Part shown: positions 4,201 through 20,936 of the stretch, one piece after another
Position numbering within the stretch: position 1 is the first letter of the stretch
Layout of the letters: each line of letters opens with the position of its first letter
Source: a virus
Strand: one strand, 5' to 3'
Virus record (IMG/VR): IMGVR_UViG_3300025736_000254
Span: 1 to 20,936 of that record
Length of the DNA: 20,936 nt
Translations under genes and position numbers: made by a program
Notes under the pieces: model-generated
The model's input: the letters and a program-made list of their open reading frames with translations, nothing else
Databases searched by the model: none
Told to the model about the DNA's origin: nothing

Positions 4201-4860
4201 ATGATAAGAATAACTATAAATGATAAAACATATAAAGTTCCTAATGAATTTAGTGAATTGACTATTGAAAAGTTCCAAGAATTATCAAAGGTGGAAGATG
4301 TTGATAAAGGAAATGTGTTAGAATATATACATATATTATCTGGTATAGATAAAGATATTCTAAAACATATAAAACTAGAAGATGTGAAAAAGATCACTGA
4401 AAAATTACTAACCTTCTTTAAACAAGGTGATTACAAATTGGTAGATGCCGTAGAAATTAAAAAACGTATATATGTTTTTGATGATGATCTATATAATATG
4501 ACATTTGAAATGTTTATAGATTTAGATGAACTGACCAAGGATCAAGATAATATAATAGATAATCTACATTTGATAATGGCTATTCTATATAGGGAGAAAA
4601 AGAAACAAAAGATATACAGGAAAAAATTATATACAGATAAGTATGATAGTAAAACAATTAAAGATAGGGCAGAGTTCTTTTCAACTAATCTTATGATGGA
4701 TAAAGTATTGGGAGCGTTGTTTTTTTTTATCAATTTAAGAACGATTTATATACAAAATATAGTGGGCTCTTTGGATCAGGAACAGATGAACCAGTTGAAG
4801 ACGACGAATACGAAGACACAGGACCAGAAAAATACTATAAAAAGTGGGGTTGGTTCTTAA
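4201..4860 (+). CDS. Tail assembly chaperone, zero-frame product
   Basis: A 219-residue product starting MIRITINDKTYKVPNEFSEL, placed two genes before the tape measure, where siphoviruses encode tail assembly chaperones (lambda G/GT-like position). These bind the tape measure and bring tail tube subunits to it. The first 175 residues look like genuine protein. After a run of nine T (4720-4728, encoding FFF) the zero frame becomes a Gln/Asn/Thr-rich tail (INLRTIYIQ... to SGVGS) that looks out of frame, while the -1 frame continues as a plausible protein to 4979. So this product is either the short form of a frameshifting pair or the result of a one-base error in the T-run. Confidence 0.65.
   Translation: MIRITINDKTYKVPNEFSELTIEKFQELSKVEDVDKGNVLEYIHILSGIDKDILKHIKLEDVKKITEKLLTFFKQGDYKLVDAVEIKKRIYVFDDDLYNMTFEMFIDLDELTKDQDNIIDNLHLIMAILYREKKKQKIYRKKLYTDKYDSKTIKDRAEFFSTNLMMDKVLGALFFFINLRTIYIQNIVGSLDQEQMNQLKTTNTKTQDQKNTIKSGVGS
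4720..4728 (+). promoter_or_regulatory. T9 run, candidate -1 frameshift site
   Basis: Nine T in a row give the slippery heptamer T TTT TTT in the correct phase (codons TTT TTT TTT). A -1 slip leads into TAT CAA TTT AAG..., the frame of the C-terminal extension. A ten-T run in the true sequence would fuse both frames without any slippage. Confidence 0.5.
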
Positions 4861-7461: not shown

Positions 7462-8029
7462 ATTGATAGTTGATGGAGATGAAGATTTTTTAACAGCGAT
7501 GGGGTTTGTAGATTACCCCGCTATTGAAAAACAATTAGTATATTTTGGTGATGATAGAACCAATTTTACTTTTGGTAAGGAAATTGAAGAGCAAGGGATC
7601 ATAGTTAGTCCAGCACTGATTGCTGATAAAAGAATTTTTAGATTTGATCCTGAAACTAATGAAGAATATTATGTTTATTTTAGTGAGGATACAATAAGAC
7701 AATTAAGTCAAGGGTTTTTAATGAGTGAGAACTTTAAGAATAATACTGAACAACATGAAAAACAAATTGAAGGTGTCCATCTTATATATTCTTGGATCGT
7801 TGAAAACCAAGATGACCAACTGATGACCAAATATGGTTTTAAAGATATACCGAATGGATCATGGGCCGTAGCATATAAGATAGAAAATGAGGACATCAAA
7901 GCCAAGATTAAAAGTGGTGAGATAGGTGGCATATCAATTGAAGCATTCTTAACAGAGAAGTATGATAAACATTTTAGTAGAGATGAACAAAAGATAGAAC
8001 AAATTAAAGATTTACTAAATAGTCTTTAA
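7436..8029 (+). CDS. Prohead protease, XkdF-like
   Basis: From ATG 7436 the protein has 197 residues. It resembles the XkdF-type putative phage serine protease: a DFLTAMGFVDYPAI start, ISPAL-like IVSPALIADKRIFR, a His-containing EQHEKQIEGVHLIYSWIVE, then GSWAVAYKIENEDIKAKIKSG and EIGGISIEAFL. Such proteases cleave scaffold and capsid during head maturation, and the scaffold and capsid genes follow. The His near 100 and the Ser of GSW or GGIS are candidate catalytic residues. A start at 7367 would add 23 residues (MKSLDIRKSG...), but the family-like sequence and the duplicated start favour 7436. Its end overlaps the converging HNH gene by 15 nt. Confidence 0.8.
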   Translation: MKKELKEIELIVDGDEDFLTAMGFVDYPAIEKQLVYFGDDRTNFTFGKEIEEQGIIVSPALIADKRIFRFDPETNEEYYVYFSEDTIRQLSQGFLMSENFKNNTEQHEKQIEGVHLIYSWIVENQDDQLMTKYGFKDIPNGSWAVAYKIENEDIKAKIKSGEIGGISIEAFLTEKYDKHFSRDEQKIEQIKDLLNSL

Positions 8030-8647
8030 TTTGTATTCCTTTACTTTTTGTATAGCATCTTCTTTTTTCTTAAACCAACCAAGATGGATATGTTTTCCTT
8101 TAATAAATAATTGTGAGTGGTAATATATATTTGATTTTCCAGTATATTTATCATTTTTAAAATTTTCTTTATGTTTTTTTACTTCATCTTTTGTATGATA
8201 AATTCCAAGATATATTAATCTTCCTTTAAAAGAAAACTGGCATCTATATTTTCTTGGATTATCTTTTATTGGTTTTTTATTTTTATATATTTTTGGTGGT
8301 TTAGTTTTTTTTCTTTTATTTTGATTTTGAGTTCCTGTAAGCAATTGTAAATTAGTGATGTTATTATTAAGTGGGTTATTATCAATATGATCTATTTGTA
8401 ATTTACTCATATCTCTTTTATCTCCTTTTTTTACGGTGCCTATATCAGTTCTTTTTCTATCTCCAAAGTGATCCCATACTAATTGATGGATTAAATGTGT
8501 TTTTTTATTTAATCCAACCACATAATAACCTCTAAGGGATTTAGATTTTTTCATAACATACCCACCCAAATGTATTTTGAAACTCCTCACATCACCAAAA
8601 TTACTAACTTGGTAATCTTCATTTACCCATTTCCATTGATTTTCCAT
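8015..8647 (-). CDS. HNH homing endonuclease with NUMOD4 and two AP2-like repeats
   Basis: A 210-residue protein on the minus strand, against all neighbours. It starts MENQWKWVNEDYQVSNFGDV, a NUMOD4 domain (about 5-50), followed by an HNH core (LIHQLVWDHFG, then QIDHIDNNPLNNNITNLQLLT, about 95-116, with the HxxxN-type catalytic signature). The C-terminus has two AP2-like DNA-binding units: YRCQFSFKGRLIYLGIYHTK and YYHSQLFIKGKHIHLGWFKK. Such free-standing endonucleases cut a site in related phages and spread by repair; they are common between phage structural genes. It sits between the protease and scaffold genes with its own AT-rich promoter-like element directly upstream. Confidence 0.9.
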   Translation of the reverse strand: MENQWKWVNEDYQVSNFGDVRSFKIHLGGYVMKKSKSLRGYYVVGLNKKTHLIHQLVWDHFGDRKRTDIGTVKKGDKRDMSKLQIDHIDNNPLNNNITNLQLLTGTQNQNKRKKTKPPKIYKNKKPIKDNPRKYRCQFSFKGRLIYLGIYHTKDEVKKHKENFKNDKYTGKSNIYYHSQLFIKGKHIHLGWFKKKEDAIQKVKEYKLKTI

Positions 8648-11561: not shown

Positions 11562-13430
11562 ATGGAATTAAGTTTGAAAACTGAAAAAAATGACGGAAGA
11601 TTTTTATTTAGTGCTTTATCGTATCAAGATGATATAGTCCTACCAACTTTTAATGATGCGAGACATCTTGATTGGGTAAAATATGGTGATGATAATATGT
11701 TTCCTCACGAATTATTAACCTTATTCAACAAAAGTGGAATACACAATGCTATTATAGAAAGTAAAACTCGTATGATGAGTGGTGATGGTATAGTTCAAGA
11801 TAAAACAGAAGGGTTTAGTGATAAGACACAAATGTTTATTGATAAAGCAAATCCTTATGAAAGTATGGATCAGGTTTATGGTAAATGTGCCATGGATTTT
11901 GAATTATATGGACTGGCTTATATAGAGGTTCTATGGGGAAAAGGTAAAAAACAGATTGCTGAATTACACCACATAGACGCAACTAAAATTAGATGGAGTA
12001 AATTAAATGATAAGAATAGAATAGATACATTCTATTATAGTCGTGATTGGAGTAATTATAGAAAAGAACAATATGTTCCAATTGAAATACCAGTTTTTAA
12101 TGACGAAAAAAGAGAAGCAAGACAGATTATACCAATTGTAAGATATACACCTGGTTTAGACTATTATGCGTTTCCTGATTATATAGCATCTACAAAGTGG
12201 ATTGCTATTGATACAGAAATTGCCAATTTCCATTTTAATAATCTTAAAAATGGTATGACACCATCTATATTCTTTGGGTTCCCAGTAGGAGATACTACAA
12301 ATGAGGAACGTGAGGTGATTGATGAAAAGATAAGAGAAAAATATGCTGGAACAAATAACGCTTCAAAATTTATCTTGGCTTTTTATGATGCGGAGGGTGA
12401 TAAGAAACCAGAGGTTACAATATTAGAAAGCCCGAATGCTGATAAGATGTATGACATCTTAAATAAAACCACACTACAACAAATCTTAGTGGGGCACAAG
12501 GTAGTAAATGAAAATTTAGTAGGTATATCAACACCAGGTAAATTAGGTTCATCTAACGAGGTTTTACAAAATTACGAATTATATTTTAATACTGTAGTTC
12601 AACCCGAACAACAAAAAGTGTTGGATCAATTTAGAAGAGTTATGTTGATAAATGGTATGAACGATATAAGTATATTAGATAATAAACCATTGAGTATGGA
12701 ATTTAGTGAAAGTATAATGGCACAAATATTAACTCGTGATGAAATGAGAGATGTAATAGGTTATGAACCAGGTGCTGTTGAAGAAAAAGTAGATGAAGAG
12801 GTTTTAGAAGAGGATATAACTGAAAGTGATGATGAAATTTTGATTAATAAGGTTAAGTTTAAGAAGATATTTGCTGGTGTTAGGACAATTGATAAGGGTA
12901 ATGCTGGAACAAAAGTAGGTGAAGCGAATTTAGATGATACTTATATGTGGCGAACTACCACAAGTGATCCTTCTTGTAAAAGTTACGAGATACATCCAAT
13001 GGACTTGGCAAAAATTCTACAATGGAAAAACAAGGACACAATGGCACAAGAGGTTTTAGAAGAGGATATAACTGAAAGTGATGATGAAATTGTGGTTAAT
13101 AAGGTTAAGTTTAAGAAGATATTTGCTGGTGTTAGGACAATTGATAAGGGTAATGCTGGAACAAAAGTAGGTGAAGCGAATTTAGATGATACTTATATGT
13201 GGCGAACTACCACAAGTGATAATTGTCCTTCTTGTAAAAGTTACAATGGAAAAACAAGGACACTTGAAAACTGGTTAAAATGGGCAATCCCAGGACAAAG
13301 ATCAGGAACAAATTTTGGTAGTGATAAGACATACATAAGTCCATTTACAAAACAAGATGGAGGAGTTCCATATGGAACTTTTTGTGAAGAAGATTGTCAT
13401 TGTAAATTGGTAAAAGTAGGTAAAGTATAA
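11562..13430 (+). CDS. Portal protein with MuF-like Cys-rich C-terminus and internal duplication
   Basis: A 622-residue protein. The first about 410 residues are a portal: HLDWVKYGDDNMFPHELLTL, then IESKTRMMSGDG, and a long helical middle (VLDQFRRVMLINGMND). The portal forms the ring through which DNA enters. The C-terminus carries a Cys motif (DNCPSCKSYNGKTRTLENW) and GTFCEEDCHCKL, resembling the end of MuF-like minor head proteins and probably binding zinc. Residues about 413-475 and 497-561 are a near-identical duplication (LEEDITESDDEI...MWRTTTSD). The first copy has lost the NC of the Cys motif and runs into a stretch (EIHPMDLAKIL) found nowhere else in the window. So the natural protein is probably about 84 residues shorter. 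Confidence 0.85.
   Translation: MELSLKTEKNDGRFLFSALSYQDDIVLPTFNDARHLDWVKYGDDNMFPHELLTLFNKSGIHNAIIESKTRMMSGDGIVQDKTEGFSDKTQMFIDKANPYESMDQVYGKCAMDFELYGLAYIEVLWGKGKKQIAELHHIDATKIRWSKLNDKNRIDTFYYSRDWSNYRKEQYVPIEIPVFNDEKREARQIIPIVRYTPGLDYYAFPDYIASTKWIAIDTEIANFHFNNLKNGMTPSIFFGFPVGDTTNEEREVIDEKIREKYAGTNNASKFILAFYDAEGDKKPEVTILESPNADKMYDILNKTTLQQILVGHKVVNENLVGISTPGKLGSSNEVLQNYELYFNTVVQPEQQKVLDQFRRVMLINGMNDISILDNKPLSMEFSESIMAQILTRDEMRDVIGYEPGAVEEKVDEEVLEEDITESDDEILINKVKFKKIFAGVRTIDKGNAGTKVGEANLDDTYMWRTTTSDPSCKSYEIHPMDLAKILQWKNKDTMAQEVLEEDITESDDEIVVNKVKFKKIFAGVRTIDKGNAGTKVGEANLDDTYMWRTTTSDNCPSCKSYNGKTRTLENWLKWAIPGQRSGTNFGSDKTYISPFTKQDGGVPYGTFCEEDCHCKLVKVGKV
12798..12986 (+). repeat. Portal internal duplication, copy A
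   Basis: 189 nt from GAGGTTTTAG to AGTTAC match copy B at 13050-13244 except for a few substitutions (ILIN against IVVN) and a 6-nt deletion (AATTGT) that removes Asn and the first Cys of the CPSC motif. It is followed by 34 unique bases, then AATGGAAAAACAAGGACAC, which also follows copy B. Confidence 0.95.
13050..13244 (+). repeat. Portal internal duplication, copy B
   Basis: 195 nt near-identical to copy A, with the intact DNCPSC coding. Just before it stands AATGGCACAA, a 10-mer also found about 80 bases before copy A (around 12717), which may mark a recombination joint. Confidence 0.95.
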
Positions 13431-13444
13431 AAAAAATAAGATAT

Positions 13445-13921
13445 ATGAAAGAAATTTGGAAAGATATAGAAGGATATGATGATTACCAGATAAGTAATTG
13501 TGGTAGATTGAAAAGTTATAAAGGTAAAACCGAAAGGATACTTAAAGAGAGTATTAGTCGTGGTTATATTATGTATTCAATTTGGAAGGACAATAAAATG
13601 AAAAATCTTAAATCACACATTTTAGTTTGGGAACATTTTGGTTCAAGTGAAAGATGTGATTTACATATAGATCATATAGATCACAATAAAACCAATAACC
13701 ATATTGATAATCTACAATTACTATCACCCAGATATAATACAATTAAACATCACAATAGAAAAGGTAATTTATTGGGTTCATCATATAAAAAATCAAATAA
13801 AAAATGGCAATCACAGATTTATTCTAATGGTAAGAAAAATTATCTTGGTTTATTTGATACAGAATTAGAAGCACATAATGTATATAAAGATGCATTACAA
13901 AAAATAAATATAAAAAGATGA
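13445..13921 (+). CDS. HNH homing endonuclease with NUMOD4 and AP2-like domain
   Basis: A 158-residue protein: NUMOD4 at the N-terminus (MKEIWKDIEGYDDYQISNCG), HNH core (LVWEHFG, then HIDHIDHNKTNNHIDNLQLL, about 78-98) and a C-terminal AP2-like unit (WQSQIYSNGKKNYLGLFDTE). It is a second, smaller relative of the minus-strand HNH protein, with a single AP2-like unit. It lies between portal and connector genes and overlaps the connector start (ATGA), so it is carried on the structural transcript. It probably cleaves a related phage lacking the insertion. Confidence 0.9.
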   Translation: MKEIWKDIEGYDDYQISNCGRLKSYKGKTERILKESISRGYIMYSIWKDNKMKNLKSHILVWEHFGSSERCDLHIDHIDHNKTNNHIDNLQLLSPRYNTIKHHNRKGNLLGSSYKKSNKKWQSQIYSNGKKNYLGLFDTELEAHNVYKDALQKINIKR

Positions 13922-17014: not shown

Positions 17015-17096
17015 ATGTATTGGTGTGTTTGAAGATGAATATGAAGCACATTTAGCATACGAAAAACAATTAGATAAATATGGATTACTCAATTGA
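17004..17096 (+). pseudogene. Relic C-terminus of a homing endonuclease
   Basis: Between two tail genes a frame without start reads YKCIGVFEDEYEAHLAYEKQ, then LDKYGLLN and TGA 17094-17096. The part IGVFEDEYEAHLAYEKQL is the typical end of an HNH/AP2 homing endonuclease (compare YLGLFDTELEAHNVYKDAL in the intact gene at 13445). No NUMOD4 or HNH part is left. It overlaps the end of the upstream gene and the start of the downstream gene (17080), so an endonuclease gene once lay here and was mostly deleted. Confidence 0.6.
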
Positions 17097-19443
17097 GATT
17101 TTGGTTAAAGGAGTTGGTAAATTAGATATACAAACAAAAGATAGTGATGACTTTGGTATTCCTTTAACTTTTAATATAAGTGATATAAAAGATTTTGCTT
17201 CAAGAAAAGCCAGTTTTAGTAAAACCATAAAAATACTTGGAACTAAAAATAACAATATAATTTTTGATCAGTTATACGAAATCAAGGGACAGAATTTTGC
17301 CTTTGATATGACAGCTAAACACGACTGCGTTTTAATAGTGAATAAAAACCCGGTGATGAATGGATTTTTAGTTCTTAAAAAAATAGAAAAACTTTTAATA
17401 GGAAATAAATATCAAGTGGTTTATAATATAGTAATGTTTGATGAAACTAAAAACTTCTTTGAGGAAATTAAAGGTAAAGAATTACAAGATTTAGATTTTA
17501 GTAGTGGTTGGACTTATGGTGATATAACTTATGGTGTTGGGGATCACGTATATAATGAAACGACAATAAAGGAAACAGCAGAAAATACTTTTTTAGATGT
17601 TTATTGTTATTCTATGGTTGATTATGGATATTATGATGATGAAAAAGTTTTTCCATATAACGATACAATTACAACCAATCTATTATACCCATCAACATAC
17701 TTAAAACCAGTAGTTGATAAGATTTTTAATGATGCTGGATATTCTTATGAAAGTGATTTTTTAGATGGTAGTTCTCATGGAGGTATATTTAAGCAAATGG
17801 TTATGCTTCATAACAATTCAAATGAATATGTTAATTTAAGAATATGTGAATATGTAACTGGTAGTTTTGTTTTTCCATCATCAAATAATAATGGGTTTAT
17901 ACCATTTGGTAGGTTTTATAGCCAATTGATAGGTGGTATATCTACAAGTTATTATGAGGTTGGTGATTTTTATGGTGTGAGTGGATCAAGTGTTGGTATA
18001 GAAATACCTTTTGATGGTGATTATGAAATATCTTTAAGATTAGATGTGGGTGATGATGAAGGTGGATTATATGAGTGGCCTTATGGTTTAACTTGTGCTA
18101 TTGATACTACTTATCATCTTGGAGTAAAATATAGTGATGGAGGCGGTGATACACTACAAACTTGGGACAGCACTTTTTTCAGGGATTATGTAGGTGATGA
18201 CGAAGCAGTTGGTTGGTTTTGGGAAGGTATTGCTGATACTGGAAATACAGCAGATCTTAAACAAGGTGATATATTATATATGTTTGTTAATGGTGGAACT
18301 TATGGTATGGAATATGAACCACCAGCGGATCCTTGTATATCACAACAGGTTTCTGTAACTTTTGATGGTGCTTCAATTGAAGGTGTGTTAGTAAGAGAAT
18401 TAGATGAAACTTTAAGTGGAACAACAGACGGACCTTTAATTACAATAGACCATATATTACCGAATATGAACCAAGATGATCTTTTAAGAAATTTAATTAA
18501 AATGTTTAATCTTTATATTTACACCGAAGATGATCCAAAAAAACTTTATATTGAACCCCGTGATGATTTTTACAAAAAAGGAACATTAGTTAATTGGGAT
18601 AGAAAAGTAGATTACAATAAAAACATAATAATAAAAACACTTAATAATGATATAGCAAATGAAATTAGATTTGAATATAGTTTAGGTGAAGATTTTTATT
18701 CACAAAAATACTTTAATGAGTGGTATGAAACATATGGAACAAAAGTTTTAGAACAAAATAATCCATACTTAAAAGAAAATAAAAGTATTAAATTAGATAT
18801 ACAAAGTTATACTATGTTTAATGAAGATGATGATGAAATAATGCCAAGATTATATGAAAAGGATAATAGCCAACATACTATCTTTGATGATAGAATAGAA
18901 TTTGAACCGATGATTGCTTTTGAAACAATTGTAGAAAAATCTGGATTGGGATTTAGGGTTGGTAATTTAGAATATGATGCTTATGGAACAACATATAGAA
19001 ATGCAGGTATAAATAAATTGAAATTTGCTTCACATGCTGGTTTATTTGGTGGTTGGAGTTTTGATTTAAATTATGAAACAACTGGTGAAACTTTTTCTTT
19101 TACTGGTTATGATAATACAAGAGGTTTATATAAAATATTCTGGGAAAATTATATGAACGATTTGATTGATGATGATGCCAGAATAGTAGAGTTATATTGT
19201 AATTTTGATTTAGCAGATATATTGAAACTTAATTTTAAGAATATAATTTTTATAGATGGTCAAAATTATTATCTACAAAAACTTGAATATGACCCAAGTA
19301 AGAAATCTTCAAGTAAAGTAACCCTTCTTAAAGTGATGGATCCAATTGGAGAAGGATCATTTGATAGTTGTTTTTTACTTAAAAATGATAGTGGTGATTA
19401 TATTTTAACAGATGATACAGATAGTAAGATAATAATTTGTTAA
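17080..19443 (+). CDS. Large tail-tip protein
   Basis: A 787-residue protein (MDYSIEILVKGVGKLDIQTK...). Its N-terminal domain, with ISDIKDFASRKASFSKTIKI, LGTKNNNIIFDQLYEI and FLVLKKIEKLL, then ELQDLDFSSGWTY, is typical of a large structural protein near the tail fibre of phages of Bacteroidota. The middle (about 180-450) is Gly/Tyr/Asp-rich and beta-rich and could contact the host surface. The C-terminal part (LYIEPRDDFYKKGTLVNWDR, later DILKLNFKNIIFIDGQNYYL) resembles tail hub domains. It probably forms the tail tip to which the collagen-like fibre attaches. Confidence 0.6.
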   Translation: MDYSIEILVKGVGKLDIQTKDSDDFGIPLTFNISDIKDFASRKASFSKTIKILGTKNNNIIFDQLYEIKGQNFAFDMTAKHDCVLIVNKNPVMNGFLVLKKIEKLLIGNKYQVVYNIVMFDETKNFFEEIKGKELQDLDFSSGWTYGDITYGVGDHVYNETTIKETAENTFLDVYCYSMVDYGYYDDEKVFPYNDTITTNLLYPSTYLKPVVDKIFNDAGYSYESDFLDGSSHGGIFKQMVMLHNNSNEYVNLRICEYVTGSFVFPSSNNNGFIPFGRFYSQLIGGISTSYYEVGDFYGVSGSSVGIEIPFDGDYEISLRLDVGDDEGGLYEWPYGLTCAIDTTYHLGVKYSDGGGDTLQTWDSTFFRDYVGDDEAVGWFWEGIADTGNTADLKQGDILYMFVNGGTYGMEYEPPADPCISQQVSVTFDGASIEGVLVRELDETLSGTTDGPLITIDHILPNMNQDDLLRNLIKMFNLYIYTEDDPKKLYIEPRDDFYKKGTLVNWDRKVDYNKNIIIKTLNNDIANEIRFEYSLGEDFYSQKYFNEWYETYGTKVLEQNNPYLKENKSIKLDIQSYTMFNEDDDEIMPRLYEKDNSQHTIFDDRIEFEPMIAFETIVEKSGLGFRVGNLEYDAYGTTYRNAGINKLKFASHAGLFGGWSFDLNYETTGETFSFTGYDNTRGLYKIFWENYMNDLIDDDARIVELYCNFDLADILKLNFKNIIFIDGQNYYLQKLEYDPSKKSSSKVTLLKVMDPIGEGSFDSCFLLKNDSGDYILTDDTDSKIIIC

Positions 19444-19486: not shown

Positions 19487-20936
19487 ATGGATAGTAGGAT
19501 ACGAAATTTGAATTATGAAGGAGCACCAACAGGGACAACTTTATTTATAGTTGATGACGCGAGTTATACCAATGCTGAATATACAACTTTAACAGATGTA
19601 AAGGATTATATATTAGATGGATATAGTAGTGATAATACTTTTACAACAGGACAAACATTTGATACAAATACAGGTATATTAAATAATTATAGAAATGATG
19701 GAGGAATATACTTTGTAGATTTAGATGGTAGATATGCTTTAAGTGGATCAACAGGAACTAGTGGAACATCTGGAGTAGATGGAGCATCTGGTTCAACAGG
19801 AGCATCAGGCACAGACGGCACAAGTGGAACATCAGGAACAGACGGAGTATCAGGAACAAGTGGAACAGATGGACAAGATGGTTCAGTAGGAAATACAGGA
19901 ACATCAGGAACATCAGGAACAGACGGAGTATCAGGAACTTCGGGAGTAAATGGAACAGACGGCACAAGTGGAACATCAGGAACAAGTGGAACATCAGGAA
20001 CAGACGGAGTATCAGGAACAAGTGGAACATCAGGAACAGACGGAGTATCAGGAACATCAGGAACAGATGGACCACAAGGACCAGCAGGTGGAACATCAGG
20101 AACTAGTGGTGTATCAGGAACATCAGGAACTAGTGGTGATGATGGAGGACAGGGTCCAGCAGGTAATGATGGAACAAGTGGAACAGATGGAACATCAGGT
20201 AGTTCAGGCACAAATGGAACAAGTGGAACATCAGGCACAGACGGAACAAGTGGAACATCAGGAACAGACGGAGGATCAGGTAGTTCAGGAACAGACGGAA
20301 CAGATGGTGCTTTAACTGGAATTACTACTGATAGTAATTTTTATTACTTAAATGATGTTTTATACACACCTGAAATTAATTTAACAGGAACGACTGAATT
20401 TACATCTCACCCATCAAATTATTATGGATTGTTTATAGATCAAGAAAATGGTGATGTTTATGCCAATAGTGGAGGAACAGGTGAAACAGGCACATCAGGA
20501 ACTTCAGGAACAGATGGCACATCAGGAACAGATGGGTTAGATGGAAATGGAACTGCTGGCACAAGTGGAACAGATGGGCAAGATGGAACATCAGGCACTT
20601 CAGGAGTAAATGGCGGAACAGGAACATCAGGCACAGACGGATTAACCGGTTCTACTTTTGATGTAGATTTATATTTTACAAATGATATACTTTATAGTCC
20701 TTTCTTAACTTTAACAGGAACCACAGGAGCAACGGATCACACTAACTTCAATAACTTATATATCGATACAGATAGTGGAGTTGTTTTTAGTAATACAGGA
20801 TCAACTGACGGAACATCAGGAACAGACGGAGTAGCAGGAACAAGTGGAGTAGCAGGAACATCAGGAACAAGTGGTGATGATGGTTTATCAGGAACAAGTG
20901 GGACAGATGGACAAGATGGTTCAGTAGGAAATACAG
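19487..20936 (+). CDS. Collagen-like tail fibre (partial, runs off the window)
   Basis: From ATG 19487 ([20 protein letters not shown]) the frame stays open to the right edge (483 codons). Residues 1-85 are globular and probably attach to the tail. Then come Gly-X-Y repeats, mostly GTSG, GTDG and GVSG with few Pro, in three blocks: 19744-20308, about 20476-20640 and 20806 to the edge. Two similar globular units interrupt them (20309-20475 and 20641-20805). Such fibres form triple helices and carry receptor-binding ends. A one-residue break (GPAG then GTSG near 20092) interrupts the Gly register. The C-terminal tip is outside the window. The highly repetitive DNA invites expansion and contraction. 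Confidence 0.85.
20309..20475 (+). repeat. Fibre globular module, copy 1
   Basis: About 55 residues within the fibre: [20 protein letters not shown], then [30 protein letters not shown]. It is similar to the unit at 20641-20805 (shared pattern: Y..ND.LY.P, LTGTT..T.H, L.ID...G.V..N). Confidence 0.75.
20641..20805 (+). repeat. Fibre globular module, copy 2
   Basis: Second unit: [20 protein letters not shown], then [30 protein letters not shown]. Protein-level similarity to copy 1 with strongly diverged DNA, so the duplication is old compared with the flanking Gly-X-Y repeats. Confidence 0.75.

Follow-up and report, generated by a model that had tools for sequence, protein, structure and literature searches.

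A partial tandem duplication, probably segregating among near-identical strains, in the portal protein gene of a phage

Partial tandem duplication of a gene, leaving a scarred junction between the copies, is a known and general kind of event. Here we describe such a duplication in the portal protein gene of a phage represented by a 20,936-base virus record, the whole of which was analysed (hereafter the window), and which encodes a terminase, a portal and further phage genes. Among the papers listed by literature searches, none concerned this phage or its portal duplication. The best annotated phage match to the protein is the portal of Nonlabens phage P12024S, with 24% identity over residues 16-367; this also has a cysteine-containing tail, but one different from the C-terminus of the portal in the window. 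When the last 169 aa of the protein in its single-copy form were compared with annotated phages by tblastn, nothing was retrieved at E<=1, and sequence searches for solved relatives of its C-terminal module and of the whole portal returned none, the best E values being 0.42 and 0.82 respectively.

The portal gene extends from 11562 to 13430 on the plus strand and encodes 622 aa, with no interruption of the open reading frame. It matches the Pfam family Phage_portal (PF04860) with E=8.9e-11 and a score of 42.0 bits, above the curated cut-off of 39.1, and PHROG portal families with E values down to 5e-28. The same family, PF04860, was matched at E<=1 (best 1.9e-14) by all 14 members of an alignment of single-copy portals, termed A3. 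The predicted fold of the core also retrieved portals as the top Foldseek matches in the PDB, with E values down to 2.5e-10, these being modest matches (TMq 0.38, TMt 0.57, rmsd 11) to a model with a mean pLDDT of 62.9.

An internal duplication had been proposed in this gene by the initial annotation, and is clearly present: positions 12796-12968 recur as a direct repeat at 13048-13220, over 173 nt with 99% identity and a spacing of 252 nt, which is far beyond chance. When a single 6-nt gap is allowed, the repeat reaches 12986 and 13244 (197 columns, 95.9% identity, two mismatches and six gap positions), giving two neighbouring direct copies on the plus strand; the longest exact repeat within the duplication is 125 nt. 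Copy A (12796-12986) is identical, up to the gap, to the sequence of a near-identical strain, L003, in which a plain single-copy portal gene encodes 538 aa. Near its 3' end copy A lacks the hexamer AATTGT, found at about 13221-13226 in copy B, hence the Asn-Cys codons are missing and the motif NCPSC is reduced to PSC. Copy B (13048-13244) is likewise identical to L003, other than substitutions at 13092 and 13095 that distinguish it from both L003 and copy A; these are 3 nt apart, both in first codon positions, and replace Leu-Ile with Val-Val.

Between the copies is a 34-nt joint (12987-13020, plus strand), which like copy A ends with TAC, followed by the 19 nt AATGGAAAAACAAGGACAC at 13021-13039 and then by AATGGCACAA at 13040-13049, at the join with copy B. 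AATGGAAAAACAAGGACAC occurs for a second time at 13245-13263; at its first site the frame is shifted, and it is restored at AATGGCACAA. The sequence TACAATGGAAAAACAAGGACAC, exact at both 13018 and 13242, is translated as QWKNKDT in one instance and NGKTRT in the other. A search of both strands of the window located AATGGCACAA at 13040 and at 12716 only, the upstream occurrence (12716-12725, plus strand) containing codons for MAQ. The start of copy B corresponds to the sequence from 12716 onward minus the 72 nt at 12726-12797, upstream of copy A, which are themselves in frame and are missing between AATGGCACAA and GAGG ahead of copy B. Overall the gain is 252 nt, equivalent to 84 codons, and the portal gene stayed open because this length is divisible by three and carries no stop codon. 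The initial annotation was therefore accurate regarding the lost Asn-Cys, the upstream 10-mer at the joint, the two frames of the shared sequence and the maintenance of an open gene throughout.

The 14,293-base contig of L003 is otherwise colinear with the window, minus exactly 252 nt, with the 5' side corresponding to copy A and the 3' side to copy B. We consider, with a probability of roughly 0.7, that this is a real, segregating partial tandem duplication, produced by one illegitimate-recombination or error-prone copying event, the mechanism being inferred. Such an event would have repeated the linker and the first half of a Cys module, with 72 nt omitted where copy B begins, 6 nt lost where copy A ends, and about 31-34 nt of filler inserted between them; the outcome is 84 additional residues in an acidic linker and one complete Cys module at the C-terminus. 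The four breakpoints (6-nt loss, filler, jump back and 72-nt loss) are all within about 85 nt, and one messy duplication event is a simpler explanation than several clean ones, in a reconstruction that draws on the four records covering the site. The two differences between the copies across 173 nt would fit errors borne by the event, and would also fit an older duplication.

The 34 bases of the joint had been described as unique, and indeed none of their 11-mers occurs elsewhere in the window, whichever strand is searched. When the joint was aligned to the window, the score was reached by 251 of 300 shuffled versions; against nearby sequence the local score was 9, which 280 of 300 shuffles reached, giving no sign of a templated insertion. 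It had no exact 30-mer match in GTDB genomes, and nine annotated phage records were retrieved, of which the eight listed had E values of 3 to 9, as arise by chance; the joint 11-mers in L004 and L012 are also attributable to chance. Exact scans of viral contigs, a set from which the window's own record was possibly excluded, recovered the joint from no contigs but this phage's own, those of the records L001 and L002, whilst the intact site was found in the contigs of L001, L002 and L003. A template-switch junction, with filler copied from nearby, is not supported, no template having been found in the window, as exact matches in viral contigs or GTDB genomes, or in annotated phages; nor was it accepted that the joint had replaced its 34-nt homologous counterpart in register, the two being identical at 14 of the 34 positions (shuffle P 0.08).

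The joint could instead have arrived, together with the 5' part of copy B, through recombination with an unsampled divergent phage having a shorter linker, V-V in place of L-I and other sequence after CKSY. Copy B's differences are clustered, at 13092 and 13095, with the second codon, GTT, being that of L004, and the joint lies in register with the nucleotides it would have replaced; however, that register signal is not significant, the 173-nt repeat is identical at all other sites, whereas identity to L004, the closest relative recovered, is only about 80% there, and the exact scans place the joint in no contigs other than those of this phage. Such an import is unlikely.

Between the portal and the next structural gene, outside the duplication, is a gene encoding a NUMOD4-HNH endonuclease (13445-13921, plus strand). 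Insertions at this border were observed in three phages: in L028 (4646-5167) there is another HNH gene, 43% identical to that in the window, and in L026 (1459-2399) there are two other open reading frames. Homing-type HNH enzymes often act on adjacent sequence, and the HNH genes at this border in the window and L028 would suit a footprint of homing, in which the downstream endonuclease cut or nicked the 3' region of the portal gene and error-prone repair made the duplication. This is nevertheless very unlikely, as the same HNH gene is present in L003, which has no duplication, and amongst 16 further contigs containing both genes, 14 have them within about 40 nt of one another, with no insertion.

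Several other features of the window were observed. A second NUMOD4-HNH endonuclease gene is on the minus strand at 8015-8647. Six small overlapping open reading frames of 74-100 aa are found either side of the terminase gene, at 277-1101 and 2370-2844, each having a near-constant head (ISPKLISVELNRVG and variants), a hypervariable centre and a tail that is also near-constant (GRFPTQLFTNIKNDRYKYVKNIT and variants); successive members overlap, and the terminase open reading frame opens with the same prefix, MIDISMLRISPKL. This stretch is matched at 100% in four contigs (L094-L097), whilst in three more (L098-L100) a terminase is surrounded by seven to eight cassettes whose centres differ from these; an open reading frame in L100 with the same prefix is presumably methylase-like. 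Five of the six small open reading frames were scanned and showed no clear family, the best E values being 0.004 in PHROGs (tail fiber) and 0.023 in Pfam. The 3' end of the window, 19741-20936, is a collagen-like repeat region with many imperfect periods of 9, 18, 27 and 36 nt.

A portal search of the viral collection returned nine loci. L001 and L002 encode a 622-aa protein identical to that of the window, with the same join, and carry different metagenome labels; hence the duplication is found in three of the four records known to cover the site and is absent from one, the near-identical L003, making it a polymorphism between closely related genomes. Amongst wider portal relatives, of which 197 were found and 80 kept, 31 were checked for internal 20-mer repeats; these were absent from 29 genes, and the two with repeats were the two duplicated contigs. 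Within this set L025 was read only up to a frameshift, and L026, L031, L033 and L036 were incomplete. The phage with the duplicated portal is also present in Antarctic lake data, where we take the label 'TB' to denote Taynaya Bay. In a study of the Vestfold Hills, 3300023061 is an 'AL' (Ace Lake, Antarctica) assembly and both 3300038786 and 3300039186 are 'TB' assemblies (PMC8620254); 3300025661 and 3300023297 are not named in the available portions of PMC8542988, PMC9716671 and PMC8116208.

The initial annotation had raised mixed strains in the assembly as an explanation. There is indeed a strain that lacks the duplication, the single-copy and duplicated forms are both found in near-identical contigs, and copies A and B jointly carry two alleles, as a strain-variant chimera or an unresolved repeat might produce. 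However, the same join with the same 34 novel bases recurs in three records, two with different metagenome labels and the third being the window, which argues against mixing inside one assembly; furthermore, the longest exact repeat could be spanned by reads of an assumed length of 150 nt, and the reading frame is preserved. An accident of one assembly thus appears unlikely, and an artefact of any such kind is very improbable.

The consequences for the protein were assessed from the A3 alignment, consisting of L003 and thirteen single-copy relatives; set aside from it were L016 and L017 (duplicated form), L024 (like L023), L025 (frameshift), L031 (cut by a contig end), L032 (no module) and the distant L034 onward (another C-terminus in those read). 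All 14 rows have the pattern FAG...Y.W...CPxC...L..W....IPG...C...CxC, with C471, P472, C474, C524, C528 and C530 invariant. Each of these residues is retained from copy B on, the intact module being encoded by 13122-13427 on the plus strand (FAG ... NCPSC ... IPG ... FCEEDCHCKL), whereas in copy A the first Cys pair is reduced to PSC and the second Cys group is never reached. With copy A damaged, and copy B and the sequence downstream intact, the 84 residues are gained in the acidic linker, leaving the C-terminus as it was. The suggestion that the portal C-terminus may have been changed is hence not upheld: the change is internal, and the sequence past copy B is unaltered relative to the single-copy strain.

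A first structural model, from seven rows, was discarded (pLDDT 33) in favour of one from 37 rows. In the latter, pLDDT by ten-residue blocks ranged from 51 to 94 across residues 41-380 and from 66 to 83 across residues 521-590, in the copy-B module; it fell below 50 over 379-428 and 430-501, partly owing to there being few aligned rows across the inserted part. The acidic linker that joins the portal core to the Cys module is probably disordered. The arrangement CPxC ... CxC resembles, we assume, the tail of Mu F-like or phage minor head proteins; unlike a recognised Mu F-like minor head protein, the module had no corresponding Pfam match, and PF06152 (Phage_min_cap2) was matched by just one of the 14 A3 members, at E=0.19. 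The portal of L032 stops before the module, with the next gene immediately after, and that of L025 has a frameshift just ahead of CPxC (4340-4380), at an apparent 7-nt near-duplication, which is possibly an assembly error; going by these two sequences, the module may be dispensable in places.

It is conceivable that the additional 84 residues, which include half a Cys module, affect how the portal or neck assembles and have been retained as beneficial: they are in frame and present in three of four records, and the copies are more divergent than the strains. This reading is scarcely probable: copy A is without the first invariant Cys and the second Cys group, such that a metal site should not form, no relative examined has the same arrangement, and L032 is entirely without the module. 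Most likely the insertion is neutral or carries a mild cost, in a linker that seems to tolerate it.

L012, L011 and L013 are the contigs of L002, L001 and L003 respectively, and relative to the window L012 differs at 3 of 10,110 sites and L011 at 12 of 10,491, six of these inside its first 36 bases. L013 differs at 7 of 11,925 sites outside the repeat, in addition to the two sites in copy B, at which all three duplicated records share the same changes. At 18839, 18956, 18960, 19395 and 19402, in the 3' third of a 787-aa open reading frame (17080-19443), L011 agrees with L013 against the window and L012, three of the five differences being amino acid-changing; by these alleles, the single-copy record groups with a duplicated one. 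The L011/L013 state is found in both of two outgroup contigs at 19402 and in one at 19395, where the other carries neither state, whilst at 18956 the direction is opposite, with one poorly aligned outgroup having the window's state; polarisation is poor for three of the five alleles, two sites being unreadable. A conflicting site, 19850, at which L012 agrees with L013 against the others, is inside a repeat region. The simplest order would be L013 first, then a single gain, then L011, and then the window and L012; the shared alleles are consistent with one gain that followed the divergence of the single-copy strain.

The duplication had also been called recent, which accords with its presence in three near-identical records. 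However, 2 of 173 sites distinguish the copies, against 7 of 11,925 between the window and the single-copy strain; calibrated on L013, a clock gives P 0.005, or 0.02 at the upper bound of the rate. A plain clock would thus place the event very recently only if it introduced these changes itself, and errors arising in this way are the simplest explanation. At the two substituted positions L003 agrees with copy A, and at the 6-nt gap with copy B, a pattern expected of an ancestor and equally of a recombination product within the 125-nt exact block, through which homologous recombination could restore a single copy. It is very improbable that the duplication predates the strain split and acts as a reversible switch of linker length via this repeat, with L003 a revertant and not the ancestor.

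The duplication represents a naturally occurring, in-frame difference in the length of a phage head protein, amongst near-identical records and with the sister allele known, and it marks a stretch of the portal apparently tolerant of insertion. It is unlike scarred partial tandem duplications in that the template of the filler was not detected and in that the net length is in frame. It resembles them in the close placement of its direct copies, the small indels and filler where they meet, and the existence of a single-copy sister strain. In other respects the duplication is an ordinary kind of event.
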